Assembly (NCBI GenBank): GCA_947172415.1
Contig: OX359198.1
Coordinates: 3,441,401 to 3,505,400, forward strand
Length of the DNA: 64,000 bases
Direction of reading: 5' to 3'
Origin: Chondrosia reniformis
Lineage: Eukaryota; Porifera; Demospongiae; Chondrillida; Chondrillidae
The notes beneath the pieces are model-generated. The model had not been told where the DNA came from, ran no database searches, and was given only the letters and a program-made list of their open reading frames with translations. A program made the position numbers and the translations under genes. This document shows, one piece after another, positions 14,231 through 63,366 of the stretch (the stretch's first letter is position 1; each line of letters opens with the position of its first letter).

Positions 14231-14946
14231 GTTAAATAAAAACATGCAAAAATGAAGTTAAAAGTAGGGATGGCACTATAACAGTGATTGGCATATCTAG
14301 AACAAGTAGTTCGAGTTTAAACTACTTGGCCGCATCGTTGGGCTTTGATATACTATTTTTAATCCTAACGATTGAGGACGTTTAAGTGTCCTGAAAATTA
14401 TAAATAGCGACAGAAAGGCTTCGTTAACTAAACCTTCCTGAACGCCGCCATTTGCAAAAACGATGTATTGACGTATAAATTAAGTGTTACAATAGTTGCG
14501 TATGAACTCGTGTTATACATATATCGACGTATAAACTGTGTTATAATCATTGCGTATGAACTCGTATTATATATATATCCGTAACATGAAGCCATACATA
14601 AATCGCGTTATGAAAACAATAGAGGGGGCTGCCTGTGGCAGCCCCTAAAAAGTAACGAAACAAGAAAGTGATCATATGGTAAGGCTAACATTGCAGAAGT
14701 GGCATACTGAAACTTAACTATACACATCACTTCTATGTTTGGGCGCATCATGGATATACTAGAAGTAGGGATCGATGCGCCCAAACATAGAGGTGATGTG
14801 TATAGTTAAGTTTCAGTATGCCACTTCTGCAATGTTAGCCTTACCATATGATCACTTTCTTGTTTCGTTACTTTTTCTAGATGTGCCAATCACTGTTATA
14901 GTGTCATCCCTACTTTTAACTTCATTTTTGAATGTTTTTATTTAAC
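14231..14946. repeat. Fold-back (inverted repeat) structure
   Basis: Two sets of inverted arms share a centre near 14761. The inner arms, 14648-14749 and 14774-14875, are 102 bp each and nearly perfect, with a 24-base spacer. The outer arms, 14231-14301 and 14876-14946, are 71 bp each with about four mismatches. On the right the arms are contiguous (173 bp). On the left they are separated by 346 bp (14302-14647), which itself ends in the hairpin GGGGCTGCC/GGCAGCCCC and holds two tandem copies of a ~55-bp unit (about 14470-14578). No coding region. It looks like a fold-back or MITE-type element with something inserted in its left arm. Confidence 0.75.
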
Positions 14947-25486: not shown

Positions 25487-25625
25487 TGTATGTATGAAAA
25501 ATCTAAGATACCATTTTCCTACATGCTTTGCCTATTCTGTAAAGAGCCTATAGGAAAACTAAACCTGAAGAGAGCTTTGGATGAAGATACAGGAGTCTTT
25601 TCTCCCTTCTTTCATCTTCTCCACT

Positions 25626-25672
25626 GGGTCAGAGAGCCGTTTCTGGGAATTCCACCCTTCATCAGTGATCCT
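25626..25672 (-). ncRNA. Hammerhead-ribozyme-like motif, copy a
   Basis: On the minus strand the core CUGAUGA (25659-25665) and GAAA (25640-25643) flank a GGG/CCC stem II. The 5' stem I strand (AGGAUCA) can pair with the sequence after the expected cleavage site (UGACCC), with one mismatch. The short stem III region differs slightly from copy b. Activity is not implied. Confidence 0.5.
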
Positions 25673-26086
25673 GGGAGTCTCTTTATCATGATCTTCTGTG
25701 AATCCTTGGCGCTCTGTGCTAAATCTAGGGGCCTTATATACACTATTTTGGCGCCAAAAGTTAAATAAGGTGTTAATTAAGACACATGATGAAATTTAAT
25801 TTTATGAAAGTAATGTAAGTCAAATTAAATTTTATGAATTAAATCTATTAGTAATCTTGCTTGTACAGGTAAAACAGATTCAGCCTAACCATAGACACGT
25901 ATATAGGACATATTACATAAGTCTACCTTTAGGTCTTATAGTAGTAACATTCCTTTGGAGGTGGGGTAACACAATATGGGGTAACACAAGACAGTCCTTA
26001 AGAATACTAGCTACTTTTTGTTTATACTTGATTCTAACTAGAGGCTGCCGGGATAGGAAGGTTTTAAAGGTTGATTTCAGCTTAAA

Positions 26087-26125
26087 GTATTTGTAACCCT
26101 GCTTAATAAGCAGGGTTACAAATAC
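26087..26125. repeat. Perfect 39-bp palindrome (hairpin)
   Basis: Arms of 19 bp, starting GTATTTGTAACCCTGCTTA, surround a single central base. It lies at the outer end of repeat copy a and is absent from copies b and c. It may be the true end of the element or a separate small insertion. Confidence 0.85.
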
Positions 26126-29100
26126 GAGTTTTATGTACCCTTTCTATGTACTAGTTGCATGTACTAGTTTCTAGTTGTATCTAATAGTTGTATGCACTGG
26201 TTGTGTGGACTAGTTGTATAAATTACTTGTTTGTCCTAGTTGTATGTACTAGGTGTATGTACTATTTATATACTAGTTATATGTGTATGTACTAGTTATA
26301 TGTACTAGTTGTAAATACTAGTTGTGGGTTCTAGTTCTAGTTATACTAGGTACTAGGTAGATCCTAGTTGCATGTACTAGATACAAGTTGATGAACTATT
26401 TGTATGTACTAGTTATATGTGTATGTATTAAGAATATGTACTAGTTGTCTGAACTAGTTATAATGTACTAGTTTTTTGGACTAGTTGTATGTACTAGTTT
26501 TATGAACTTGTTCTATGAACTAGTGGTGTGTACTAGTTGTATTTGCTAGTTGTATATACTACTAGTAATATATAACAGTTGTGTGTTCTAATTATATCTA
26601 CTAGTTGTATGAAGTAGGTGGATGTACTAGTTTTATGAACTCGTATGTACTCATTGCTAGTTTTATGTACTAGTTGTATGTACTAGTTGTATGTAATAGT
26701 TGTATGTACTAGTAATATGTACTAGTTGTATGTACTAGTTGTATGTATTAGTTGTATTTACTAGTTGTATGTACTAGTTGTATGTAATAGTTGTATGTAC
26801 TAGTAATATGTACTAGTTGTATGTACTAGTTGTATGTATTAGTTGTATGTACTAGTTGTATGTACTAGCTGTGTGAACTAGTTCTGTGTACTAGTTATAT
26901 GAACTAGCTGTATGAAGTAGGTGTATGTACTAGTTTTATGTCTCGTATGTACTCATTGCTAGTTTTATGTACTAGTTGTATGTACTAGCTGTATGTATTA
27001 GTTGTATGTACTAGTTATATGTACTAGTTGTATGAAGTAGTTGTATTCGTTGTGTGAACTAGTTCTGTGTACTAGTTATATATACTAGTTTTATATACTA
27101 GTTGTATATACTAGTTGTAGTATTAGTTTTATGTAATAGTTGTATGTACTAGATGTATGTACTAATTGTAAGTACTTATTCTATGTACTAGTTGTATGAA
27201 GTAGTTGTATGTACTAGTAACTAGTTGCATGGTCTAGTTGTATGTACTAGTTGTATATACTAATTGTAAGTAATATTTCTATGAACTAGCTGAATGTACT
27301 AGTTGTAAATACTAGTTGTATGTCCTAGTTGTATGAACTATTAAATAGTGGTATGGTCTAGTTGTATGTATAAGTTGTATGTACCAGTTGTGTGTACTGT
27401 TTTTATGTACTGGTACCAGTTATATTTACTAGTAATCAGAAATAGTAGTATGTACTAGTTGTTAGTACTATTTATACATACTAGTTATATGTACTAGTTA
27501 TATATACTATGTGTATGTACTTCTTGTATGTACTAGTTGTATGTACTATTTGGAGGACTAGTTTTAAACACGAGTTGTATATAGTAGATGTATTTGCTAG
27601 TTGTAAGTAATCGTTCTATGTACTAGTTTTATGAAGTAGTTGTATATACTAGTTTTAGGTACAAGTTGTATGTACTGCTTGTATGTACTCGTAGCTAGTT
27701 GTATTTACAAATTGTATGTACTAGTTATATGTACTAGTACTAGTTTTATTTACTAGTTGTAGGTAATAGTTGTACGTACTAGTTGTAGGTACTAGTTGAA
27801 TTTACTATCTGAATGTAATATTTGTATGAACTAATTGTGTGTACTCGTTCTATGTACTAGTTTTACGTACTAGTTTTATGCAGTAGTTGTGTGTACTAGT
27901 TGTATCTAATACTTCTATGTACTAGTGGTGTGTAATTGTTTATGTACTAACTATATTTACTAGTTGTATGTACTAGTAACTAGTTGTATGTACAAGTTAA
28001 ATGTACTAGTTGTATTTATTAGTTGTATGTGCTAGTTGTATGTTACAGTTGTATGTACTAGTTGTATGAACTAGTTGTATGTACTCGATACTAGTTGTGT
28101 GTACTAGTTGTGCGTACTAGTTATATGTACTAGTTTTACGTATTAGTTGTATGTACTAGTTGTATGTACTAGTAACTAGTTGTATGTAAAAGTTATATGT
28201 ACTAGTTGTATTTATTAGTTGTATGTACTAGTTGAATGTACTGGTTGTTTGTACTGGTTCTATGTACTAGTTGTAATACTAGTTCTCTGTACTAGTTGCA
28301 TGTACTAGTGTTATGCACTATTTATATGTACTAGTTGTAAGTACTAGTTGTAGGTTCTAGTACTCGTTGTAACAGGTACTAGGTAGGTTCTATAGTTGTA
28401 TGTACTAGTTCAATGTACCAGTTGGATGTTCTAGTTTTTTTTCTAGTTGCATACACTATTTATATGTACTAGTTACCTTTGTATGAATTAGTTTTATGTA
28501 GCAGTTGTGATTACTAGATATATGTACTAGTTGTGTGTACTAGTTGTATGTAGTAGTTGTATGTAGTAGTTGTATGTACCAGTTCAATGTGCAAGTTGTA
28601 GGCACTATTTATATGTACGCGTTGTATGTACTGGTTGTAAGTACTAGCTGTATATACTAGTTGTAAGTACTAGGTGTAGGTTCTATTAGTAGTTATACTA
28701 GGTACTAGGTTGGTACTATTTGTATATACTAGTTGTATGGACTAGTTGTATGTACTAATTGTTGTACTTGTTGTATGCACTCATACTTGTTGTATGTACT
28801 AGTTGTAAGTACTAGTTTTATGTACTCGATACTTGTTGTGTGAACTAGTTGTATGTTCTAGTTTATGTTGTAGTTGTATATACTATTTATATGTACTTGT
28901 TACCTGTGTATAGACTAGTTTTATATAGTAGTTGTGTGTACTAGTTATATGTGTATGTAAAAAGTATATGTACTAGTTGTATGTACTAGGTGTATGTAAT
29001 AGTTATAGGTTCTAGTACTAGTTATTGTGGTTAACAGGTGGGTACAAGTTGTATGTACTACCTGTTTGTACTAATTGTATGCATTAATTGTATGTACTAG

Positions 29101-39046: not shown

Positions 39047-39389
39047 AAAGTCAACCTTTAAAACCTTCCTATCCCGGCAGCCTCTAGTTAGAATGAAGTA
39101 TAAGCAAAAATTAGCTAGTATGCTTAAGGACTGTCTTGTGTTACCCCATATTGTGTTACCCCACCTCCAAAGAAATGTTACTACTAGAAGACCTAAGGGT
39201 AGACTTACGTAATATGTCCTACTTGTGTCTATAGTTATGCTGAGTCTGTTTTACCTGTACAAACAAGATTACTAATAGATTTATAATTAATTCATAAAAG
39301 TTAATTGGACTTACATTCCTTTCATAAAATTAAAATTTCATCATGTGTCTTAGTTAACACCTTATTTAACTTTTGGCGCCAAAATAGTG

Positions 39390-39397
39390 TATATAAG
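39390..39397 (+). promoter_or_regulatory. TATA-like box in repeat copy b
   Basis: TATATAAG followed by GCCCC, a few bases after the GGCGCC palindrome. The same box is kept at the equivalent place in copies a and c, which supports function in the ancestral element. Confidence 0.4.
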
Positions 39398-39467
39398 GCC
39401 CCTAGGTTTAGCATAGTGAGCCAAGGATTCACAGAAGATCAAGATAAAGAAAAAGACAAAGACTCCC

Positions 39468-39514
39468 AGGATCACTGATGAAGGGTGGAATTCCCAGAAA
39501 CGGCTGTCTGACCT
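39468..39514 (+). ncRNA. Hammerhead-ribozyme-like motif, copy b
   Basis: This type I hammerhead-like motif would self-cleave the element's transcript. Seen in order: stem I 5' strand AGGAUCA (39468-39474), core CUGAUGA (39475-39481), stem-loop II with GGG/CCC (39482-39496), core GAAA (39497-39500), a very short stem III with GGCU loop closing on GU (39501-39507), C at the expected cleavage site (39508), and stem I 3' strand UGACCU (39509-39514), which pairs with AGGAUCA except for one mismatch. An A-A pair occupies the first stem II position, where G-C is usual. Very short stem III is typical of retrozyme and Penelope hammerheads, which act as dimers. Confidence 0.6.
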
Positions 39515-39668
39515 AGTGGAGAAGAAGATGAAAGAAGGGAAAAGAAGGAAGAAAAGACTACTGTATCTTCATCTAAAGCTCTCTTTAGGTTTAGTTCCCC
39601 TATAGGCTCTTTTTACAGAATAGGCATATAGCATGTAGGAAAATGGTATCTTAGATTTTTCATATAAC

Positions 39669-41090: not shown

Positions 41091-42102
41091 GACCACTTTC
41101 CGAAAGAAACCTGGAGATTTCTCTGATAGAAAACCCTGGGGGGCAGTGCGGTTCAACCATGTTGATACGGCACTGCTTCAGGAGGCCAATGATTGGGTGG
41201 AGAAAGAGTGGCAGGAAGGCCCTAGGTCGGCCTGGCACCTGAACTGCCTAGTCTACTCTGTTGCTATGGCTGTGAGGGGAAAAACAACCTACGAATCGCA
41301 GCCATGCAACCAGGGAAGGAAATCAGATAATCAGAAGGGAAATAAGAGACAGGAAGGTCACATAAGTGACAGGAAGGCCAAGGGCCTTAGGTTTAGAAGA
41401 CTGCTTGCCGGGTTGGATGTGGAAATAGCGCGTCAACAGAATAATAATCCTATGACCAAATGCCAGAAAGTACTCCGAAGAAAGCTTAGGAGGGAGTTCC
41501 ATTCATTAAACCTGAATGTGCTGATCAGAGCTCGGGAACAGACACTGGGGAAACTCAGGGTCTGGACCCTACAAGAGCGAAGATCGGTTGAAAGCCGGAA
41601 ATTCCAGGAACAAAACCACCTTTGGAATACTCAAAGGAAGTTCCGGATGAATGGCAATGTTCCAACCTCCAATGAAGCTCCCTCAATTGAGGTCGTAAGA
41701 GACTTTTGGACAAAGATTGTAGGTACTGTTGGTAAGGTCAACAAAGACGACCCAGGGGTGAAAGAATGGCTAAAGGAAACCAAAAAGAGGGTGGATAGAA
41801 CCCCCTCTGAAGGTCCCGATAGCATTGATGAGACCAAACTGAGGAAGGCCTTGAAAAAGGCAAAAAGCTGGTCAGCCCCTGGGCCGGATGGCATCCACAC
41901 TTTTTGGTGGAAAGCACTCCCCTCTGCACAGTCTGCCTTGGCAGATGTACTACGGAGGGTGGTGAGCGGAGATCTGTCAGTCCCAGACTGGCTTACAAGG
42001 GGTCGCACTCTACTCATCCCCAAAAAGGGTGACCCGAAAAGTGCGGCCAACTACCGACCTATTGCGTGTCTCAACACAATGTACAAGGCTGTCACAGCAT
42101 AA
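41091..42102 (+). pseudogene. LINE copy 1, N-terminal and RT fingers segment
   Basis: Begins with KKPGDFSDRK...AVRFNHVDTALLQEAND, a conserved pre-RT region. It continues through a basic linker to SWSAPGPDGIHTFWWK (RT motif 1), LLIPKKGDPK and NYRPIACLNTMYKAVTA (motif 2). The frame stops at 42102 because one base is missing compared with copy 2 (CATAATTG against CATACATTG); the downstream frame overlaps from 42066. The in-frame codons upstream of 41099 are satellite, so no native start exists in this copy. Confidence 0.75.
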
Positions 42103-43553
42103 TTGCATCAGAATTACTCACTTACACCTACACTAATGATCTTTTACCTATGGCTCAACGAGCCATGAGAAAAGGGAGGTGGGGCTGTGTGGACTGTCTA
42201 CTGCTGGATCAATCAATCGGTCTAGATGCCAAAATTATGGGCAAGCCACTTAGTGTGGCATGGATCGATTATGAGAAGGCATATGACAGAGTCCCTCACA
42301 AGTGGGTGATGAAGGTGCTAAAAACCATCAAGTGCCCAGGTTGGATCCGGAGGTCTATAGAGCTCTTCTCCAAACACTGGGCTACTGTGCTTGAGTTGCA
42401 GACTGCGGGGAAGGTGGTTAGGAGCACCCCTGTTAAATATAACAGGGGACTCTTCCAAGGAGACTCCCTATCGCCACTCCTCTTTTGTCTGGCCATAGCT
42501 CCCATATCCCAAGTTCTTAACAGAACCAAGGGATATACCCTCTGGCATAATGGGGAAAGGAACACCATGTCACACTTGCTGTACATGGATGACCTTAAGA
42601 TATATGCTGGAGGGCCTGATAAACTCAGGGAAGCCATGGAATGTGTGGAGAAAACCTCAAATGCCATTGGCATGAGGTTTGGAGTGAGAAAGTGTGGAAC
42701 AGCTCACATGCAAAAGGGGAAAGTTCTGGCTGGCCCAGACAACCCTGAACACAGTGAAGAATCCATAAGGAGCCTTGAAAAAGGTACTACCTATAAGTAC
42801 CTAGGGCTAGAACAACAGTTTGAGGTAGATGACAGCAAGGTCAAAGCTTGCTTGATCAATGAATTGAGGAGGAGACTCCACAAAGTGTGGGGCTCTCACC
42901 TCAATGGTAAGAATGCTGCAGAAGCCTCTAACATGTTGTGTGCCTCTCTATTGAGATACTCTTACCCAGTTTTGAAGTGGACTCAAAGTGAGCTTCCAAA
43001 ACTGGGCCGAATGGTGAGAAAGATCATGAGAAAGTACCAGTGTCATCACTATAACTCTGCCATTGAAAGAGTGAATTTGCCTCGCTCTCAAGGTGGTAGA
43101 GGGCTCTGTAGTTTTCCTTTGGATCACGACAGGGCTGTTGTGAATCTGGCAAGATACCTCCATACTGCCAATGATCCACTCATAGCTGTTTTGGTTAAAC
43201 ACCAAAAGTGGCTGGAGTGCTCAAAGCAGAGGAGGACTGTCTTGAAAGAAGCCAGATTGATACTGAGAAGCCACGGAATAGAACTAGAACCGGAAATGTG
43301 GCTGAAGACAGATCCCTCACAAAATAGTGTAAGAGAATGGAGGAGAGTGGCACGTGAGCTCCGGGAGGCTCAGACTGAAAGGTTAAAAAGTAACCTAGCC
43401 GAAAAGTCTCACCAGGGCTCATACCACAGACAAGTCACAAATAGGGAGTCTTATGTGTGGCTTTCTGAGGGGAGACTCAGACCTCAAACTGAGGCTCTGA
43501 TTCTCGCAGCCCAAGATGATGTGCTGAACACTGCAAGAATTCTAGCCTCCTAA
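42066..43553 (+). pseudogene. LINE copy 1, reverse transcriptase core
   Basis: This segment copies element RNA into DNA at the target. Catalytic motif A is WIDYEKAYDRVPHKW near residue 67, motif B is GLFQGDSLSPLLFCLA, and motif C is LLYMDDLKIYA with both aspartates present. Thumb and linker follow, up to YVWLSEGRLRPQTEALILAAQDDVL. Before the endonuclease, copy 1 lacks about 25 bp that copy 2 keeps (51404-51430), which closes the frame at 43553 and shifts the rest. This is the best-preserved RT of the three copies. Confidence 0.8.
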
Positions 43554-44158
43554 TGTGCAGAGAATGTGGCAAGGTTATGGAAACGGTCAAACACATACTA
43601 AACATGTGTGAGCCCAAGGGATTTTCTCTCTACAAAGAGAGACATGACCGGGCAATACTGATAGTGTTGTGGAGACTGTTGAAAGAATATGGATTCAAGC
43701 AGGAAGAGCCCTGGTACAAACTAGAAGCAAAACCAGTCTATGAGAATAGGGCTGTCAAAATCTTGTGGGATCCTAGTATCCCTACAGATGATGAAATGAC
43801 AGAAAGAAGGCCAGACTTAGTGGTTGAGGATCGGCTATGTAAGTCCATCTTCATTATTGAGATGTCAGTTCCTACTGACAGCAATATTAATGGAAGATGG
43901 CAAGAGAAGTTCCAAAAGTACCAGAAGCTGGCAGCTGATATGAGGAAACAATTTAGGGGCTACCGAATTAAGGTAGTCCCGATGATAATTGGTGCTTTGG
44001 GGACAGTGGAGACGCTCCTAGAAGACCTTAGGGGAATTCCAAAGCTGTCAAAAAGTGCAGTAGAAGTGATGAGAGCCATGCAGAGAACTGTTCTCTGTTC
44101 GGCTGTGAGGATATTGAGGCGACATCTATCTGTTGAGGGATTGGGGCCTGGACGATAA
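43553..44158 (+). pseudogene. LINE copy 1, zinc motif and restriction-like endonuclease
   Basis: MCRECGKVMETVKHILNMC forms a C-X2-C-X8-H-X4-C zinc motif directly followed by the endonuclease. RPDLVVEDR and IIEMSVPTD supply the PD-(D/E)XK-like acidic residues, and KFQKYQKLA and a C-terminal helix follow. In R2-type elements this domain nicks the target DNA to prime reverse transcription. Stop at 44156-44158. The segment is open throughout but separated in frame from the RT, so it would not be made as part of the full protein in this copy. Confidence 0.8.
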
Positions 44159-44424
44159 GTAGTCCTGTCCCAGTCCTTGCCTGTCGACCTCTGGAAAGCA
44201 GTGGTGGATTGGTGTATGGAGGTACTCCCTCCTATTATGACGGTCAACTTTGGCCCGACGTGCACCCGTCTGCTGCTGTCGGAAGGAGGAAAAGCCGAGG
44301 CTTCTGGCTAAAAACCCAAAGAAAGGAAAACATAACTGACTGAGGGTTGTCCAAGCCAGATACTCCTTGCCTTAGTACACTAAGGCAAGAAGTAACAAGG
44401 TTCTCCGTTAAGGCTTTTGTTTTT

Positions 44425-44717
44425 CAAGTAGTGACTAGTTGTACGTACTAGTTGTAAGTACAAGTAACTAGGTGTATGTACTAGTCGTATGCACTAGTTC
44501 TATGTACTGGTTTTATGTACTAGTTTTATGACGAAGTTGTATGTACTAGTTATATGTACAAGTAATCATCTTTTTGTACTAGTTATCTGTACTTGTTGTA
44601 TGTACTAGTTGTGTGTAATTATTCTACGTACTAGTTATATTTACTACTTGTAGTTACTGGTTTTATGTACTAGTTGTATGTACTAGTTGTATGTACTACT
44701 AGTTGTATGTTCTAATT
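44425..44717 (+). repeat. 13-bp satellite, forward orientation
   Basis: About 290 bp of satellite lies between LINE copy 1 and repeat copy c. Confidence 0.85.
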
Positions 44718-45224
44718 GTATGAAAAATCTAAGATACCATTTTCCTACATGCTATGCCTATTCTGTAAAAGACCCTATAGTGGAACTAAACCTTCTTTTC
44801 CCTTCTTTCATCTTCTTCTCTACTGGGTAAGACAGCCGTTTCTAGAAATTCCACCTTTTATCAACGATCCTGAGAGTCTTTATCTTTTCTTTATCTTGAT
44901 CTTCTGTGAATCTTTGGCTCTCAATGCTAAATCTAGGGGCCTTATATACACTAATTTGGCGCCAAAAGTTAAATAAGGTGTTAATTAAGACACATGATGA
45001 AATTTAATTTTATGAAAGGAATGTAAGTCAAATTAAATTTTATGAATTTAATCTATTAGTAATCTTGCTTGTACAGGTAAAACAGATTCAGCATAACCAT
45101 AGACACAAGTAGGACATATTACATAAGTCTATCCTTAGGTCTTATAGTAGTAACATTCCTTTGGAGGTGGGGTAACACAATATGGGGTAACACAAAACAG
45201 TCCTTAAGCATACTAGCTACTATA
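44718..45224 (-). mobile_element. Hammerhead-bearing short repeat, copy c
   Basis: A ~505-bp copy, shorter at both the purine-rich part and the far end than copies a and b. It keeps the GGCGCC palindrome (about 44957-44962), the TATATAAG box on the minus strand (about 44941-44948) and the paired GGGGTAACACA motifs. The hammerhead-like region (44827-44873) is diverged in its core, so this looks like the oldest or least constrained copy. The plus-strand frame at 44716-44976 is antisense to the promoter-like signals. Confidence 0.65.
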
Positions 45225-48073: not shown

Positions 48074-48853
48074 ATGTGGCATCCTGTGGCTAAATCAGCC
48101 TTCCTGCCAGTATGGGCTAACCCCCCGTCTGGCAGCTTCACTGGGGTACGTTACGTCACAAGAATTAAAATTAGGCCTAGGTGCACCAGTGGTGAAGAAA
48201 ACCCTGGGTCAACCAGAATAGGTGATTCCACTGGTGCCTCGCAGGTAGATGTACCTGATTGTAATAGCCTTTCTTCAGTCCCCATGATGGGCCAACCATC
48301 CCTATGGAACGAGGAAATGGTTAGGGCACTAATTGATTGCTATGAGCGATCTGAACCCAAAAGAGGTGGCTATCAGAAGCGTTTAGAGCAGGAATGGCTG
48401 AGCAAATACCCACATTTGCCTCAGACCGGTCGAACCCTTGCCTTCCAAGCCAAAAGGAACTTGGTAGGAGACGGAGTACTGCAAGTAACTGGTAGCCGAG
48501 ATTTAGATTTGGTTAATGATGCACCGCAAGGTGCCTCTAGAAGGAGAAGGATCCAAGGGGTGATCTGGAACCTTCAGAGGAGTAATATCCTCATGGAGCT
48601 CTACCGAGAAAGTAAGCCCATGGAAAAGGGGTATGCCGAGCGGTTGTACCAGGCTTGGAATGCTAAACTGCCAGACCATAAAACCACAAAGGTAGCGCTA
48701 ACTACGAGAATTAGTATAATCCAAAGAGGTCAAGGTCTCTCAAGACTAAACCTTGTGGAACCTGACTCTCGTGGTTTAGCCACCCAACTGAGACTGTGGA
48801 GGAAGGTGTGGGAGCCCAGGGAGAGGGGGAGTTTCACCAAGTTCAGGCTGTGA
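48074..48853 (+). CDS. LINE N-terminal ORF with duplicated DNA-binding-like module
   Basis: A 259-codon open frame. The likely start is ATG 48074 or, more conservatively, the methionines in PMMGQPSLWNEEMVRALIDC. It holds two similar ~60-residue modules: ALIDCYERSEPKRGGYQKRL ... EEWLSKYP-like (about residues 89-135) and NILMELYRESKPMEKGYAERL ... AWNAKLPDH (about 173-215). Each is predicted helical with a conserved aromatic, resembling Myb- or trihelix-type DNA-binding folds. The frame overlaps the downstream ORF, which is open from 48766 in the -1 frame. The same out-of-frame arrangement is found in copy 3. It may be a separate ORF1 or the N-terminus of one frameshifted protein. Confidence 0.5.
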   Translation: MWHPVAKSAFLPVWANPPSGSFTGVRYVTRIKIRPRCTSGEENPGSTRIGDSTGASQVDVPDCNSLSSVPMMGQPSLWNEEMVRALIDCYERSEPKRGGYQKRLEQEWLSKYPHLPQTGRTLAFQAKRNLVGDGVLQVTGSRDLDLVNDAPQGASRRRRIQGVIWNLQRSNILMELYRESKPMEKGYAERLYQAWNAKLPDHKTTKVALTTRISIIQRGQGLSRLNLVEPDSRGLATQLRLWRKVWEPRERGSFTKFRL

Positions 48854-51800
48854 CTGAACAAAATGGTGAGCCTCCTGCAGCCCCTGCTGAAACTCCTACA
48901 AATGATCATCCTAGTCAAAGTACAAGTGGCAATGATCATCTGATGCAACTTTTATGCAAAGCAAAAGATGCCTGTCTCCGAAAGAAACCTGGAGATTTCT
49001 CTGATAGAGAACCCTGTGGGGCGGTGCGGTTCAACCATGTTGATACGGCACTGCTTCAGGAGGCCAATGATTGAGTGGAGAAAGAGTGGCAGGAAGGCCC
49101 TAGGTCGGCCTGGCACCTGAACGCCTGATCTACTCTGTTGCTATGGCTGTGAGGGGAAAAACAACCTACGAATCGCAGCCATGCAACCAGGGAAGGAAAT
49201 CAGATAATCAGAAGGGAAGTAAGAGACAGGAAGGTCATAAAAGTGACAGGAAGGCCAAGGGCCTAAGGTTTAGAAGACTGCTTGCCCGGTTGATGTGGAA
49301 ATAGCGCGTCAACAGGAAAATAATCCTATGACCAAATGCCAGAAAGTACTCTGAAGAAAGCTTAGGAGGGAGTTCCATTCATTAAACCTGAATGTGCTGA
49401 TCAGAGCTCGAGACAAGACACTGGGGAAACTCAGCGTCTGGACCCTACAAGAGCGAAGATCGGTTGAAAGCCGGAAATTCCAGGAACAAAACCACCTTTG
49501 GAATACTCAAAGGAAGTTCAAGATGAATGGCAATGTTCCAACCTCCAATGAAGCTCCCTCAATTGAGGTAGTAAGAGACTTTTGGACAAAGATTGTAGGT
49601 ACTGTTGGTAAGGTCAACAAAGACGACCCAGGGGTGAAAGAATGGCTAAAGGAAACCAAAAAGAGGGTAGGTAGAACCCCCTCTGAAGGTCCCGATAGCA
49701 TTGATAAGACCAAACAGAGGAAAGCCTTGAAAAAGGCAAAAAGCTGGTCAGCCCCTGGGCTGGATGGCATTCACACTTTTTGGTGGAAAGCACTCCCCTC
49801 TGCACAGTCTGCCTTGGCAGATGTACTACGGAGGGTGGTGAGTGGAGATCTGTCAGTCCCAGACTGGATTACAAGGGGTCGCAATCTACTCATCCCCAAA
49901 AAGGTGACCCGAAAAGTGCAGAAAACTACCAACCTATTGCGTGTCTCAACACAATGTACAAGGCTGTCACAGCATACATTGCATCACAACTACTCACTCA
50001 CACCTACACTATTGATCTTTTGCCTATGGCCCAAAGGGCTATGAAAAAAGGGAGGTTGGGCTGTGTGGACTGTCTACTGCTGGATCAATCAATCGATCTA
50101 GATGCCAAAATTATGGGCAAGCCACTTAGTGTGGCATGGATCGATTATGAGAAGGCATATGACAGAGTCCCTCACAAGTGGGTGATGAAGGTGCTAAAAA
50201 CCATCAAGTGCCCAGGTTGGATCCGGAGGTCTATAGAGCTCTTCTCCAAACACTGGGCTACTGTGCTTGAGTTGTGGACTGCGGGGAAGGAGGTTAGGAG
50301 CACCCCTGTTAAATATAACAGGGGACTCTTCCAAGGAGACTCCTTATCGCTACGCCTCTTCTGTCTGGCCATAGCTCCCATATTCCAAGTTCTTAACAGA
50401 ACCAAGGGAATACCCTCTGGCATAATGGGAAAAGGAACACCATGTCACACTTGTTGTACATGGATGACCTTAAAATATATTCTGGAGGGCCTGATAAATT
50501 CAGGGAAGCCATGGAATGTGTGGAGAAAACCTCAAATGCCATTGGCATGAGGTTTGGAGTGAGAAAGTGTGGAACAGCTCACATGCAAAAAGGGAAAGTT
50601 CTGGCTGGCCCAGACAACCCTGAACGCAGTGAAGAACCCATAAGGAGCCTTGAAAAAGGTACTACTTTTAAGTACCTAGGGCTAGAACAACAGTTTGAGG
50701 TAGATGACAGCAAGGTCAAAGTTTGCTTGATCAACTAAATGAGGAGAAGACTCCACAAAGTGTGGGGCTCTCACCTCAATGGTAAGAATGCTGCAGAAGC
50801 CTCTAACATGTTGTGTGCCTCTTTATTGAGATACTCTTACCCAGTTTTGAAGTGGACACAAAGTGAGCTTCCAAAACTAGACCGAATGGTGAGAAAGATC
50901 ATGAGAAAGTACCAGTGTCATCACTATAACTCTGCCATTGAGAAGGTAAACTTGCCTCGCTCTCAAGGTGGTAGAGGGCTCTGTAGTTTTCCTTTGGATC
51001 ACGACAGGGCTGTTGTGAATCTGGCAAGATACCTCCATACTGCCAATCATCCACTCACAGCTGTTGTGGTTTAACACCAAAAGGAGCTGGAGTGCTCAAA
51101 GCAGAGGAGGACTGTCTTGAAAGAAGCCAGATCGATACTGGGAAGCCATGGAATAGAACTAGCACCGGAAATGGGGCTAAGGACAAATCCCTCACAAAAT
51201 AGTGTAAGAGAATGGTGGAGAGTGGCACGTGAGCTCCAGGAGGCTTAGACTGAAAGGTTAAAAAGTAACCTAGCCAAAAAGTCTCACCATGGCTCATACC
51301 ACAGACAGGTCACAAATAGGGAGTCTTATGTGTGGCTTTCTGAGGGGAGACTCAGACCTCAAACTGAGGCTCTGATTCTTGCATGATGTGCTGCACACTA
51401 GGTGGTACCGAAATAGGATTCTGAGGAATTCTAGCCTCCTAATGTGAAGAGAATGTGGCAAGGCTATGGAAACAGTCAAACACAGACTAAACATGTGTGA
51501 GCCAAAGGGCTTTTCTCTCTACAAAGAGAGGCATGACCGGGCAATACTGATAGTATTGTGGAGATTGTTGAAAGAATATGGATTCAAGCAGGAAGAGCCC
51601 TGGTACAAACTAGAAGCAAAACCAGTCTATGAGAATAGGTCTGTCAAAATCTTGTGGGATCCTAGCATCCCTACCGATGAAGAAATGACAGAAAGAAGGC
51701 CAGACTTAGTGGTTGAGGATCGGCTATGTGAGTCCATCTACATTATTGAGATGTCAGTTCCTACTGACAGCAATATTAATGGAAGATGGCAAGAGAAGTT

Positions 51801-52050
51801 CCAAAAGTACCAGAAGCTGGCAGCTGATATGAGGAAACAATTTAGGGGCTACCGAATTAAGGTAGTCTTGATGATAATTGGTGCTTTGGGGACAGTGGAC
51901 ACGCTCTGGGAAGACCTTAGGGAATTCCAAAGCTGTCAAAAGATGTAGTAGAAGTGATGAGAGTGATGCAGAGAACTGTTTTCTGCTCGGCTGTAAGGAT
52001 ATTGAGGCGACATCTATCTGTTGAGGCATTGGGGCCTGGATGATAAGTAG
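48766..52050 (+). pseudogene. LINE copy 2, degraded RT and endonuclease ORF
   Basis: The same protein as copy 1, with additional sequence upstream (NDHLMQLLCKAKDACLRKKPGDF). Breaks compared with copy 1 include a TGA for Trp near 49072, lost bases near 49122 and 49283, a stop near 49352, a lost G near 49905, a lost base near 50409, a stop at 50736, a stop at 51072 and a stop near 51247. RT motifs IDYEKAYDRVPHKW, GDSLS and YMDD can still be read, as can the endonuclease RPDLVVEDR...IIEMSVPTD at about 51697-51770. Here the ~25 bp lost before the zinc motif in copy 1 are present. It is non-functional. Confidence 0.8.
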
Positions 52051-52312
52051 TCCTGTCCCATTCCTTGCCTGTCGACCTCTGGAAAGTAGTGGTGGATTTG
52101 TGTATGGAGGTACTCCCTCCTATTATAAGGGTAAACTTTGGCCCGACGTGCACCTGTCTGCTGCTGCTGGAAGGAGGCAAAGCCGAGGCTTCTGGCTTAA
52201 AACCCAATGAAAGGAAAACATAACTGACTGAGGGTTGTCCAAGCGAGATACTCCTTGCCCTAGTAAACTAAGGCAAGAAGTAACAAGGTTCTCCATTAAG
52301 GCTTTTGTTTCT

Positions 52313-53127
52313 AAGTATATATATCTTAGTTTTTTGTACTAATTGTATGTACTATGTGTATATACTATTTGTATGTTCGAGTACTAGCTATAGTTTTAAG
52401 TTGTGTGTACTAGTTGTATCTACTAGTTGTAGGTGCTAATTGTATACACTAGTTGTATGTGTTAGTCTTATGTACTAGTTTTATGTACAAGTTGCATGCA
52501 GTAGTTGTATGTACTACTTGTGTGTACTAGATTTAAGTACTAGAACTAGTTAGTTGTAGGTACTAGTTATATTTTCTTGTTGTAGGTTTAAGTTGTATGT
52601 TCCAGTTGTGTGCACTAATTGTTGCTTCTAGTTATATGTATATATTCTTTCTATGTACCAGTTGTATGTACCAGTTACTAGTTGTATATACTAGATATAT
52701 TTTCTAGTTATATGTACTTGTTGTATGTATTAAGTATATGTACTAGTTAATGGACTAGTGGTATGTACTAGGTGAATGTACAAGTTGTATGTACTAGTTG
52801 TATGTACTATAGATGAATGTACTAGATGTGTAGTTTGTACCAATTCTATTCATTATATACTTGCATGTCCTAGTTTTATGTACTAGTTATACGTATTAGT
52901 TGTATGTACTATGTATGTGGACTAGTTTAATGTTCCAGTTGTATGAACTATTTGTATATACTAGTTGTATACACTAGTTGTGTGTACAAGTCCTATGTAC
53001 TCAATAGTAGGTGTGTCTACTAGTTGGGTGGACTTGTTGTATGTACTAGGTTGTTTGTACTAATACTTGTTATACTTACTAGTCGCAGGTAAAAGTTGTG
53101 TATACAAGTTGTATGTACTACTAATGG
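52313..53127 (+). repeat. 13-bp satellite, forward orientation
   Basis: This block continues the satellite block interrupted by LINE copy 2. Its first 130 bp match 7828-7950. TGTACTACTA at 53114-53123 recurs on the far side of the Penelope-like element. Confidence 0.85.
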
Positions 53128-53157: not shown

Positions 53158-53200
53158 TATCTTTGTAAAGGTTCATCTTTCGACTTTTAGAGCGTCTAGA
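53158..53200 (+). repeat. Terminal inverted repeat of the Penelope-like element (3' end side)
   Basis: Contains CTTTGTAAAGGTTCATC and CGACTTTTAGAGCG. It is identical to the reverse complement of 55564-55606. Confidence 0.9.
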
Positions 53201-53228
53201 GACGCAGTTTTTTCCGATTCTTCTGTCT

Positions 53229-53265
53229 GCCAAACGTTTCGACCCTGGGGGTCTTCTTCAGTGAC
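53229..53265 (-). ncRNA. Hammerhead-ribozyme-like motif of the Penelope-like element
   Basis: On the minus strand: stem I strand GUCA (53262-53265), core CUGAAGA (53255-53261), one extra A, a stem II of GACCC/GGGUC with loop CCA, core GAAA plus C (53236-53240), then GUU as the cleavage triplet with a two-base-pair stem III, and UGGC, which pairs with GUCA. Penelope-like elements are known to encode hammerhead motifs (established knowledge). The extra A before stem II is a deviation, so activity is uncertain. Confidence 0.5.
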
Positions 53266-53292
53266 TGGTGTTGGTCTTCAAGGTGTCTTCAT

Positions 53293-55540
53293 TTATAGGC
53301 ATCTTTTCCCGCCATTTTCGATTACCTCATCAGTGATGTCATCGGTTACATCATTTCCGGAGGAAGGAGAGGTGAAGGGAGTATTCATAAAAAAGGGTTT
53401 CCAACCACTTCTTAGTACAATTCCTTGATCTAAGTTCATTCTTACCTGACATTGTTGGATCTTCAGGGCTTCCTTAATTCTTCTTCTGTACCAGTTCTCT
53501 TCCCTCTCCACCACTCTGGCTTGGCTCCACTCAATTGGATGACCAGTTTTTAGGGAGTGAACAGCTAAACCATTGTTCACATCCCCCATCCTGACGGCAC
53601 GTTTGTGCTCCGCCATCCTGACTTTTAGAGTTCTTCCAGTTTCTCCAGTGTACACTGCAGGGCAACTAGAATAGGGAATCTGGTAAACGACACCTTTAAT
53701 ATCCATGGTAGGCTGGGGTTGTTTAGGCCTAGAGAGGATACTCCTCAGTGATCTCTGCTTTGTGAAAATGGTTTCGATGTTCATCTTCCGGCATGTTCTG
53801 GAGATCATTTCACTGAGGCCTTTCACATATGGAATAAAAAGTTTACGTTTACCATCTTCCCTACTTCCCTGGTTCCGTTGTCTCTTCTTCATGTGCCTAG
53901 CAGCAACCTTACTGGGGTATCCGTTGGCCTGGAGAACCCCTTTCAGGTGCTCTTTTTCCTCTTGGAGGACACTGGATCCAGCACCACAGGTCTTCTCCGC
54001 TCTGTCCCTGAGGCAAAGGGCAATGCCAGCTTTCACCCTAGGATGGTGATGAGACGAGAAGTGAAGGTATCTATCCGTGTGGGTTGGTTTTCTGTACACG
54101 GATGTACTCAAACTTCCTTTGTTCTTCTTCACTAGCACGTCAAGAAACGGGATAGAGCCATCTGTCTCCTCCTCCATGGTGAACTGAATGTTTCCGTGTC
54201 TTCCATTAAGGAAAGACAGAAAATCCTCCAGCTGATCCCTACCTTGGCTCCAGATGACAAAGGTGTCGTCTACATAACGTAGCCAGAGCCTAGGTTTGGA
54301 GCCAGCCTCCTGGAGGGCTTCGTTTTCAAACTCTTCCATGAAGATGTTTGCCACCACTGGAGAGAGAGGAGAGCCCATGGCTGCCCCATCCTTTTGCTCA
54401 AAGAACTCGTTACCGTACTGGAAGTACGTTGTCCTAAGACAGAGTTCTGTGAGTATTGTGATGGTGGGGGGGTCCAGAGTGGTCCGGTCTGATAGGGTGT
54501 TGTCTTCCCTCAGCCTCCTATCAATGATCTGTAAGGAGAGATATAGGTACCTTCGTAAACAAGCTCTTCACATCAAAACTGATTAACTTATCTTCATTCT
54601 CTACTTGTAATCCCCTGATTTTCTTCACAAAGTCCTCTGAGTTCCTCACAAAGTGAGGAGTGTTCCCCCACAAGGGTGACAGGATAGTCGCCAGATATCT
54701 GGATAGGTGGTAGGTAGGGGAGTTTATAGAGGAAACAATAGGTCTCAAGGGACAACTGGCCTTATGGATCTTTGGGAGTCCATATAACTGGGGGGTGGAG
54801 CTCTGTTGGTTCTGAACCCTCTTCCTCAGATCATTAGGGAGTTTGCCATTCTTTTCCAGTGACCGGAGAACTTCAGTTACCTTCCGTTCTATTTTCAATG
54901 TTGGGTTCTTTTTGATTGGTTGATAGCTCGTATCATCCAAAAGTTCCCTTACTTTGCGGTCGTACTCTTCTTTGTCCAGGAGGACTGTGGCATTTCCCTT
55001 GTCTGCTGGAAGAATGATGGTATCAGAGTTCACCTTGAGCTCCTTGATGGCTGCTGTCTGACGTTTGGTCAGATTAGGGCTTGGGACCCCAGCTTTTGAC
55101 AGGCATCGTTGGACTTCACTCCTGAGTTGTTCTCCCTGGTGACCAGGTAAGTAACGAGCTAAGGATTCCGTCCCCGCAATGATGTCAACCTGTGGAATGT
55201 GACGAGGAGTTGGTATAAAATTAAGGCCAAGGGTAAGAACCTGTCTCTGTTGTGGTGTCAACTCCCTCTTAGAAAGGTTGATGATCACTTTTTCTGGGTC
55301 AATGGGAGTGAACCTGTTGACCTTGATGTTCCTGTTTAGCAGAGACTGGAACTTCACCCTATGCCTCTCCTTGGTTTCCTGGAAGGTCCTTTCAGCAATG
55401 TTGTCACTCCATTCCTTCAGTTTAGAGAAGGATTCCCTGCTGACCAACTTCATTAAGGAAGCTTCACAGGATTCCAACAGCATTCGGGAGTGGTGTAATG
55501 TCCTACGAGCCGCGCCAATATGTTCACGTACTAAAGCCAT
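53293..55540 (-). pseudogene. Penelope-like reverse transcriptase with GIY-YIG endonuclease
   Basis: About 750 codons in total length, normal for the family. The upstream part, from MALVREHIGAARR, has a Penelope-type N-terminus (NLSKRELTPQQRQVLTLGLN, LPADKGNATVLLDKEEYDRK), followed by YGLPKIHKASCPLRPIVSSI and ISFDVKSLFTKVP, the first catalytic aspartate of the RT. The downstream part has GAAMGSPLSPVVANIFMEEF, the RYVDDTFVIW catalytic pair, SIPFLDVLV and VYRKPTHTDRYLH. Near the C-terminus CPAVYTGETGRTLKVRMAEH is the GIY-YIG core, with RRRIKEALKIQ carrying the expected Glu. The two parts lie in different frames, so it is broken at about one point but otherwise well kept. Confidence 0.85.
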
Positions 55541-55563
55541 TGACGTGCGAAACGCTAATCGTT

Positions 55564-55606
55564 TCTAGACGCTCTAAAAGTCGAAAGATGAACCTTTACA
55601 AAGATA
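55564..55606 (-). repeat. Terminal inverted repeat of the Penelope-like element (5' end side)
   Basis: Mirror of 53158-53200. Only about 20 bases separate it from the proposed start codon at 55540, so the promoter must lie within or outside the repeat. Confidence 0.9.
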
Positions 55607-62040: not shown

Positions 62041-62194
62041 AGACAGGCTGTGGCCTAGGTGCACCAGTGGTGAAGAAAACCCTGGGTCAACCAGAATAGG
62101 TTTTTCCACTGGTGCCTCCCAGGTGGATGCACCTGAATGTAATAGCCTTTCTTCGGTCCCCATGACAAACCAACCAGACCTCTAGACCGAGGAC

Positions 62195-62689
62195 ATGGTT
62201 AGGGCACTAATTGATTGCTATGAGCGATCTGAACCCAAAAGAGGTGGCTATCAGAAGTGTTTAGAGCAGGAATGGCTGAGCAAATACCCACATTTGCCTC
62301 AGACCGGTCGAACCCTTGCCTTCCAAGCCAAAAGGAACTTGGTAGAAGACGGAGTACTGCAAGTAACTGGTAGCCGAGATTTAGATTTGGTTAATGATGC
62401 ACCGCAAGGTGCCTCTAGAAGGAGAAGGATCCAAGGGGTGATCTGGAACCTGCAGAGGGATAATATCCTCATGGAGCTCTACCGAGAAAGTAAGCCCATG
62501 GAAAAGGGGTATGCCGAGCGGTTGTACCAGGCTTGGAATGCTAAAATGCCAGACCATAAAACCACAAAGGTAGCGCTAACTACAAGAGTTAGTAGAATCC
62601 AAAGAGGTCAAGGTCTCTCGAGACTAAACCTTGTGGAACCTGACTCTCGTGGTTTAGCCACCCAACTGAGACTGTGGAGGAAGGTGTGA
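62195..62689 (+). CDS. LINE copy 3, N-terminal ORF with duplicated module
   Basis: A 164-codon frame from an ATG inside the first module, ALIDCYERSEPKRGGYQKCL. The second module, MELYRESKPMEKGYAERLYQ, is intact, and it ends RLWRKV at TGA (62687-62689). Upstream in frame a TAG (about 62182) precedes the ATG where copy 2 has an open codon. Differences from copy 2 are few. It overlaps the next ORF by 16 bases in the -1 frame. Confidence 0.45.
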   Translation: MVRALIDCYERSEPKRGGYQKCLEQEWLSKYPHLPQTGRTLAFQAKRNLVEDGVLQVTGSRDLDLVNDAPQGASRRRRIQGVIWNLQRDNILMELYRESKPMEKGYAERLYQAWNAKMPDHKTTKVALTTRVSRIQRGQGLSRLNLVEPDSRGLATQLRLWRKV

Positions 62690-63123
62690 GAGCCCAGGGA
62701 CAGGAAGAGCCACACCAAGTTCAGGCCAGGACTGGACAAAATGATGAGCTGTTTACAGGCCCTGTTGAAACTCCCTCACATTATCATCCCAGTCCCAGGA
62801 CAAGTGGCAATGATCATCTGATGCAACTTTTAGGCAAAGCAAAAGATGCCTGTCTCCGAAAGAAACCTGGAGATTTCTCTGATAGAAAACCCTGTGGGGT
62901 GGTGCGGTTCAACCATGTTGATACGGCACTGCTTCAGGAGGCCAATGATTGGGTGGAGAAAGAGTGGCAGGAAGGCCCTAGGTCGGCCTGGCACCTGAAC
63001 TGCCTGGTCTACTCTGTTGCTATGGCTGTGAGGGAAAAACAACCAACGAATCGCAGCCATCCAACTAGAGAAGGAAATCAGACAATCAAAAGAGTAGTAA
63101 GAGACAGGAGGTCACATAAGTGA
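62674..63123 (+). pseudogene. LINE copy 3, start of main ORF
   Basis: An open frame whose residues NDHLMQLLGKAKDACLRKKPGDFSDRKP ... QEANDWVEKEW match copy 1 from 41099 and copy 2 from 48908 on. A lost base near 63035 changes the last ~35 residues before TGA at 63121-63123. Just beyond, the sequence jumps to the 3' noncoding region. The displayed start is a GTG, and an earlier in-frame start is possible. Confidence 0.6.
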
Positions 63124-63366
63124 CATGAAGGCCAAAGGCCTTAGGTTTTGTGTATGGAGGTACTCCCTCCTATTATGACGGTCAACTTTGGCCCAACGTG
63201 CACCTGTCTGCTGCTGCCGGAAGGAGGCAAAGCCGAGGCTTCTGGCTAAAAACCCAAAGAAGGGAAAACATAACTGACTGAGGGTTGTCCAAGCCAGACA
63301 CTCCTTGCCTTAGTTAACTAAGGCAGGAAGTAACAAAGTTCTCCATTAAGGCTTTTGTTTCTAAAG

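Follow-up and report, generated by a model that had tools for sequence, protein, structure and literature searches.

Penelope-like elements (PLEs) with minimal type I hammerheads were reportedly described by Cervera and De la Pena in 2014, and Craig et al. are said to have found in 2021 that the permuted PLEs of the Naiad/Chlamys clade dominate many invertebrate genomes. Hammerheads in PLEs, TATA-bearing pseudo-LTRs (pLTRs), tails and solo pLTRs are all already published, according to the sections available of three accounts (PMC7229834, PMC11167929, PMC3846280). In the available part of the work on an Anolis PLE, the protein starts reverse transcription at an internal site of the RNA, close to the start of the ORF, cleavage by the hammerhead is protein-assisted, and the hammerhead is dispensable for insertion in vitro (PMC11167929). 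PLEs have also been proposed, in the accessible text of another account, as candidate movers of animal retrozymes (PMC7229834). For the Penelope families of Adineta vaga, the portion of the account at hand gives solo pLTRs, inverted pLTRs and 8–10-bp target duplications, and makes no mention of a hammerhead (PMC3846280). No report of retrozymes in Porifera was found in the open literature searched, where the combination of hammerhead ribozyme, Penelope and sponge led, in the extracts available, mostly to plant retrozyme work.

The locus described here, from the sponge Chondrosia reniformis, matters for two questions, namely what the hammerhead does in PLEs and which enzyme moves animal retrozymes. 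In the 117-Mb genome, PLE frames free of stops and a PLE tail word with about 2300 copies occur alongside the canonical type I hammerheads of retrozyme-like repeats, and the sponge offers both partners, PLE and retrozyme, for a direct test.

Repeat copies in the window

The window analysed is a stretch of 64,000 nucleotides, and the genome searched comprised 117,379,552 bases in 15 contigs. Its mitochondrial cox1 requires TGA to be read as tryptophan and, judged at conserved positions, AGR as arginine. An earlier note had described a repeat with a TATA box and a hammerhead-like ribozyme at 39047–39668, and had read it as a retrozyme-like element, with a solitary LTR-like remnant as the alternative. 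We consider it very likely that 39047–39663 is a 5′-truncated copy of an autonomous PLE of about 3501 bp, whose pLTR carries a TATA box, a 5′UTR, an atypical hammerhead and a TTTTTCAT tail, with a proposed RNA start, priming at the tail and a role for the hammerhead. The features of the three window copies are listed below.

39047..39663, plus strand: copy b, a 5′-truncated PLE copy (3′ end of the ORF and pLTR), with 98.7% identity to each of the two pLTR copies at locus L009
39048..39209, plus strand: remnant of the C-terminus of the PLE frame, residues 944–997 of 997 (tblastn, 96% identity, 54 aa)
39375..39380, strand not applicable: GGCGCC palindrome 5′ of the TATA box, present in 10/10 aligned copies
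39390..39397, plus strand: TATATAAG, putative TATA box of the pLTR promoter, present in 10/10 aligned copies
39413..39424, plus strand: putative transcription start zone, inferred from the equivalent 12 positions, at which 20/40 sampled copies have their 5′ ends
39463..39521, plus strand: atypical minimal type I hammerhead motif, with the extended stem I as drawn by hand
39475..39508, plus strand: hammerhead core (CTGATGA, stem II, GAAAC, stem III, GTC), with predicted cleavage after 39508
39656..39663, plus strand: TTTTTCAT insertion tail, the 3′ end of most copies and presumed start of reverse transcription
25494..26111, minus strand: copy a, about 90% identical, same family
25614..25685, minus strand: hammerhead region of copy a, with the core boxes present and the G of stem III gone (CUCUC)
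44720..45221, minus strand: copy c, about 86% identical, same family
44813..44884, minus strand: hammerhead region of copy c, with a decayed core (UUGAUAA)

The right end of copy b had been placed five bases too far, at 39668, and its left edge at 39047 lies inside former coding sequence. The TATA box, beside the GGCGCC palindrome and said to lie about 110 bp 5′ of the hammerhead, has the last core base 111 bp and the core start 78 bp beyond its own last base, and the tail ends 155 nt past the predicted cleavage site. Copy a retains both core boxes as claimed, within the bounds listed rather than 25487–26125, and frame residues 927–996 match at 25919–26128 (tblastn). Copy c preserves the promoter-like part attributed to it, with bounds close to the 44718–45224 proposed. 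Genome-wide, a 622-bp query found at least 40 copies at 98–100% identity (the best 40 of 2232 candidates).

A probable autonomous Penelope-like element

Copies of the repeat are paired 3500–3501 bp apart at three loci (L009, L010 and L011), where they form direct repeats of 1214 bp (100% identity), 655 bp (100%) and 1148 bp (99.9%), respectively, that reach upstream into coding sequence to differing extents. Two pLTR copies spanning unit positions 390–610 were found in 16 of 30 element loci. The repeats of L009 enclose a stop-to-stop frame of 997 aa (973 aa from the first ATG, by hand count), and residues 1–997 are stop-free in at least eight of at least 49 genomic matches to the frame (46 of 1449 candidates scored). 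A GIY-YIG domain at residues 126–159 exceeded the Pfam cut-off of 22.6 bits when the N-terminal piece was searched (E 5.1e-5, 23.9 bits) and fell below it with the whole protein (21.9 bits). The RVT_1 match lies within the last 453 aa (Pfam, E 5.4e-6, 26.7 bits, below the cut-off of 29.6) and was absent from the Pfam output both with the whole protein (E ≤ 0.1) and with a 753-aa piece (E ≤ 10). A PDB sequence search with the whole frame gave no match at E 0.01. By tblastn, the frame matched a second PLE in the window at 54527–55018 (26% over 182 columns, E 6.9e-7), and the frames contain PADK, FDFSTLYTAIPH and YIDDL, which we take to be PLE motifs. The frame between the paired repeats, the GIY-YIG and reverse transcriptase matches and the tblastn link to the second PLE therefore identify the repeat as a PLE pLTR: judged by its sequence, 39047–39663 is a pLTR with a predicted promoter, 5′UTR, hammerhead and insertion tail, following about 160 bp of frame end.

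An LTR retrotransposon, a candidate raised by the 3501-bp pairing, was rejected on the frame and its GIY-YIG domain. A solitary LTR of such an element, the alternative of the earlier note, would account for the TATA box and for the spacing of about 3.5 kb between the direct repeats; it is nevertheless extremely improbable, since the repeats hold coding sequence, including the end of the frame, their 5′ extent varies from 38 to 1214 bp among the loci read, and the enclosed protein has a GIY-YIG domain and neither an integrase nor a protease reported by the Pfam scans.

By the Pfam positions, the endonuclease of the PLE is N-terminal and the reverse transcriptase C-terminal in the single 997-aa frame, a permuted order that appears Naiad-like as judged by domain order alone. 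We take this endonuclease-first order to be that of the Naiad/Chlamys clade, whose members likewise have GIY-YIG before the reverse transcriptase. As in PLEs with minimal type I hammerheads, to the extent of the descriptions available, GIY-YIG and reverse transcriptase share one frame, and there are pLTRs with tandem or partial units, 5′ truncation, a tail, and a hammerhead located at the ORF start or 5′ to it (PMC7229834, PMC11167929). Unlike in those elements as described in the same excerpts, the endonuclease is N-terminal and many copies span the putative start site to the tail. The order in L009 is start zone, hammerhead, tail and then, about 130 bp on, the first ATG; the predicted cleavage site lies about 285 nt upstream of that ATG, whereas it lies 26 bp inside the ORF in the Anolis PLE, going by the available sections (PMC11167929). 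The Adineta vaga families, as far as their account was available, share the TATA box in the pLTR, and their reverse transcriptase precedes the endonuclease, opposite to the sponge PLE (PMC3846280).

Among 40 copies tested for target-site duplications, one of 15 bp stands out (L093; 0/30 random controls as long) and perhaps another of 7 bp does too (L059; 1/30 controls as long). Duplications of 10 bp in L102 and 8 bp in L101 were reached by 9/30 and 7/30 controls, and 23 of the 40 copies had no duplication of at least 5 bp. The identity of pLTRs within versus between elements, as a test of a circular template, gave a mixed result.

Copy ends along the unit

Copy ends can show which RNAs served as templates for reverse transcription. 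They were read in two samples: 20 GGCT-class copies hand-picked from the list of core-pattern matches, and 20 copies without the exact core, picked by the word just 3′ of the hammerhead. In the first sample, 18 of 20 copies end at unit 615–616, at TTTTTCAT, 13 begin at unit 370–377, and most are about 244 bp long, hammerhead included. Seven copies of the second sample begin at unit 366–377. Thus 20 of the 40 sampled copies start in a 12-nt zone, 23–34 nt past the start of TATATAAG (unit 343), with a binomial probability of about 1.6e-21 under the rough null of uniform ends over 462 positions. Exact words of the unit, with counts that are also shaped by divergence among subfamilies, occur in the genome 303 (unit ~319–334), 515 (~360–375), 1343 (~378–393), 1435 (462–480) and 2304 times (~585–600), against 0 for each control, and the rise from 515 to 1343 falls across the putative start zone. 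Diverged copies (20 loci) are short too; 11 of these have blastn starts at 394–403, which seem to be partly an alignment gap.

The 5′ ends of the minicopies could alternatively mark a stop of the reverse transcriptase or an independent SINE-like family, which we regard as unlikely. PLE-protein homology is indeed absent from the 1.05–1.35 kb of upstream flank in all four diverged copies read, as a SINE-like family or a stop would allow, but the 5′-end zone lies about 30 bp from the TATA box, the usual spacing to a transcription start, and longer copies of the same family run through it. Transcription starting in this zone is the favoured reading.

The short hammerhead-bearing copies of the GGCT class also recall a non-autonomous retrozyme, a short hammerhead element copied via circular RNA by the enzymes of another element, and retrozyme-like repeats elsewhere in the genome share their stem III word. 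The enclosed 997-aa frame largely refutes this reading, which was that of the earlier note and is now very improbable: the same repeat, as pLTR and ORF end, flanks the coding sequence of a 3.5-kb autonomous PLE. Moreover, the ends of the short copies fall on fixed positions of the PLE unit, dimers of the ~244-bp unit are absent from the 684-bp stretches read, though L066 has two hammerhead sites in tandem, and the genome's retrozyme-like repeats have a different body and tail. What endures of the original description is that the terminal repeat of a retroelement, here a PLE, carries both a promoter-like part and a hammerhead-like motif whose stem III is very short.

The word that follows the PLE cleavage site was found at 57 places on contig C1 up to 7.02 Mb, 36 of which match the intact-core list by position. 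Twenty of the other 21 were read, and 15 of these hold a hammerhead with point changes or small indels; in L116, an internal deletion takes out most of the hammerhead. Four copies start at unit 452, 455, 457 and 462, in the hammerhead or at its end, one of them exactly at the base after the cleavage site, and these four 5′ ends within 11 nt may represent a small excess at the hammerhead itself. Most copies with the post-cleavage word still hold the hammerhead, and most templates would therefore have been uncut at that site. This, like the copies that run from the start zone to the tail with the hammerhead included, points to largely uncleaved RNA as the template of reverse transcription.

Proposed mechanism

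In the mechanism proposed for the PLE, the RNA would start about 30 nt past the TATA box, and the reverse transcriptase would begin at an internal site, the tail, which lies close to the start of the ORF. A single-unit transcript copied from the tail to its 5′ end would yield 5′UTR minicopies of about 244 bp that still hold the hammerhead. Full copies contain more than one unit and would therefore need tandem or circular RNA; either tandem read-through or circular RNA made by the hammerhead could give rise to full-length and longer copies with pLTRs on either side. Cutting tandem transcripts into units is the probable role of the hammerhead, which could supply circles, and most templates would be uncut when copied.

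The hammerhead motif

The motif was read at 39475–39508 just as the earlier note had given it (CUGAUGA, a GGG/CCC stem II, GAAA, a tiny stem III and a C at the cleavage site), and the sequence agrees with the predicted cleavage after 39508. CTGATGA occupies 39475–39481, A-GGG-TGGAATT-CCC-A 39482–39496 and GAAA 39497–39500, followed by a stem III of one to two pairs (C-GGCT-G, 39501–39506), U39507 and C39508. The stem I strands pair as claimed apart from one A.C mismatch (39471 with 39512), and an A.A mismatch is present at the base of stem II. A type I hammerhead is likewise found in animal non-LTR retrozymes, by the available text (PMC7229834).

A descriptor scan of both strands found one site in the 64 kb, and reversed-sequence controls gave 0 and 1, so that chance is possible when the motif is judged on the window alone. 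The genome contains 2127 matches to CTGANGAN{6,24}GAAACNGCTGTC versus one for the reversed pattern; the first 100, which were listed, are all on contig C1. The stem III word in PLE-type copies is GAAACGGCUGUC or GAAACAGCUGUC, and the PLE motif shares the word GAAAC[A/G]GCUGUC with the canonical type I hammerheads in separate retrozyme-like repeats of this genome.

A covariance search and compensatory changes in the stems had been put forward by the earlier note as checks. Rfam hammerhead families gave no match at E ≤ 10 for the PLE motif (window; 701 bases). RF00008 had no match on the whole genome, where the controls were equally silent, and this null therefore shows little. A lineage covariance model made solely from 14 retrozyme hammerheads ranks 39473–39510 first in the window (13.9 bits, a weak E of 0.059), followed by a match that is presumably due to chance (E 0.35). 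When 16 of the 20 diverged loci (24.8 kb) were given to this model, the best matches scored 13.4–20.1 bits, down to E 0.0002; the second PLE-type site of L066 reached only 9.9 bits (E 0.47).

In an alignment of 46 rows, nearly all of them core-selected, 90.2% of cells pair in the drawn structure versus 32–55% when it is slid, and pairing fails in 36 rows at one position of stem I. The covariation score of this alignment (0.121) is not above that of shuffles (0.115 ± 0.004; reached by 59/500), and neither is the number of pairs with double changes (4 versus 2.7 ± 1.1; reached by 108/500). RNAalifold favours another, weak fold over the drawn hammerhead. For three PLE RNAs, the folding energies do not beat those of shuffles (z −0.49, 0.89 and 0.99), and for a retrozyme RNA the energy does (z −3.0). 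Stems I and II appear in the best fold of copy b and in that of L059, and are missing from that of the commonest form of the family. Stem I is GGGUCA/UGGCCC or GGGCCA/UGGCCC in many diverged copies, and GGAUCA/UGACCC, with its one A.C mismatch, in the young GGCT family.

It is somewhat unlikely that the element is a PLE in which the likeness to a hammerhead is catalytically inert, a relic or a coincidence. The A.A at the base of stem II, the stem I pair disrupted in the youngest family, the covariation no higher than in shuffles and the lack of an Rfam match would all fit such a relic; it is harder to reconcile with a core and stem III word that are the same as in the genome's canonical hammerheads, with the six-pair stem I of several diverged relatives, and with the minimal hammerheads of PLEs elsewhere, one of them protein-assisted, in the sections available (PMC11167929). 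The PLE motif is read here as a real but atypical hammerhead relative, and its putative activity, if any, would be weak or protein-assisted, as in the Anolis PLE.

Retrozyme-like repeats elsewhere in the genome

A search of the genome with RF00163 gave at least 65 matches, at least 51 of them above the cut-off (73 of 11921 candidates scored), and the window site is absent among the matches listed. Type I hammerheads above the Rfam cut-off lie in retrozyme-like repeats at L013–L020 and L076–L083. These repeats fall into two or more sequence families, in which stem II is GUCC/GGAC or GCCC/GGGC. Four loci (L079–L082) are dimers and inverted pairs occur in L080 and L083. The retrozyme-like repeats differ from the PLE in their short units (350–355 bp in the four dimeric loci read), their canonical stem II and their body and tail; once aligned, the tails gave no match convincing to the eye. 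The two have in common the stem III word GAAACAGCUGUC, present in the retrozyme-like loci read, and an end comparably far past the cleavage site, at 155 nt in the PLE versus 141–149 nt in the retrozymes (L013, L079, L080, L081 and L083; 116 nt in L082, by subtraction).

As the tails differ in sequence, a common enzyme for the PLE and the retrozymes is no more than plausible. Tentatively, and on balance doubtfully, the two could share one hammerhead lineage (the core and GAAAC[A/G]GCUGUC, with an end 141–155 nt past cleavage) because the PLE enzyme copies both, the minicopies reflecting a start of reverse transcription in the 5′UTR of unprocessed RNA. If this were true, the uncut minicopies would show PLE reverse transcription starting in the 5′UTR of unprocessed RNA, and full copies would need tandem or hammerhead-made circular templates. 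PLE pLTR sequence was found in two of 16 retrozyme loci (L016 and L081); PLE copies are common, and the co-occurrence therefore proves nothing.

Retrozyme-like sequence appears to enclose a PLE minicopy in L067/L075, and the retrozyme of L081 adjoins an inverted PLE tail. On the minus strand of the window, positions 217–258 match the retrozyme body over 42 bp (88%) and may be what is left of an old retrozyme.

A second Penelope-like element and other window features

The second PLE of the window, at 53167–55597 on the minus strand, is decayed and is bounded by an exact 34-bp inverted repeat (53167–53200 and 55564–55597). Its reverse transcriptase frame (RVT_1, Pfam E 5.2e-8) is followed by a GIY-YIG-like stretch recognised by eye, for which Pfam gave no GIY-YIG at E ≤ 0.01. 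Just past this frame, at 53235–53263 on the minus strand, lies a hammerhead-like run, CTGAAGA-A-GACCC-CCA-GGGTC-GAAACG, with the additional A that copy b also has behind its first core box; it is a candidate only, called by no program and with no clear cleavage triplet.

A match to MIR6140 on the minus strand at 14661–14862 (89.2 bits, cut-off 140) is probably a palindromic repeat. Much of the window is filled by a 13-bp satellite, TACTAGTTGTATG, which switches strand at about 29600 and 40367, matching the flip in GC skew. There are two direct duplications, 41099–44719 / 48977–52622 (92.5% identity) and 48174–49271 / 62052–63148 (93.2%), and an RVT_1 frame lies at 42033–43553, inside the 41099–44719 duplication.
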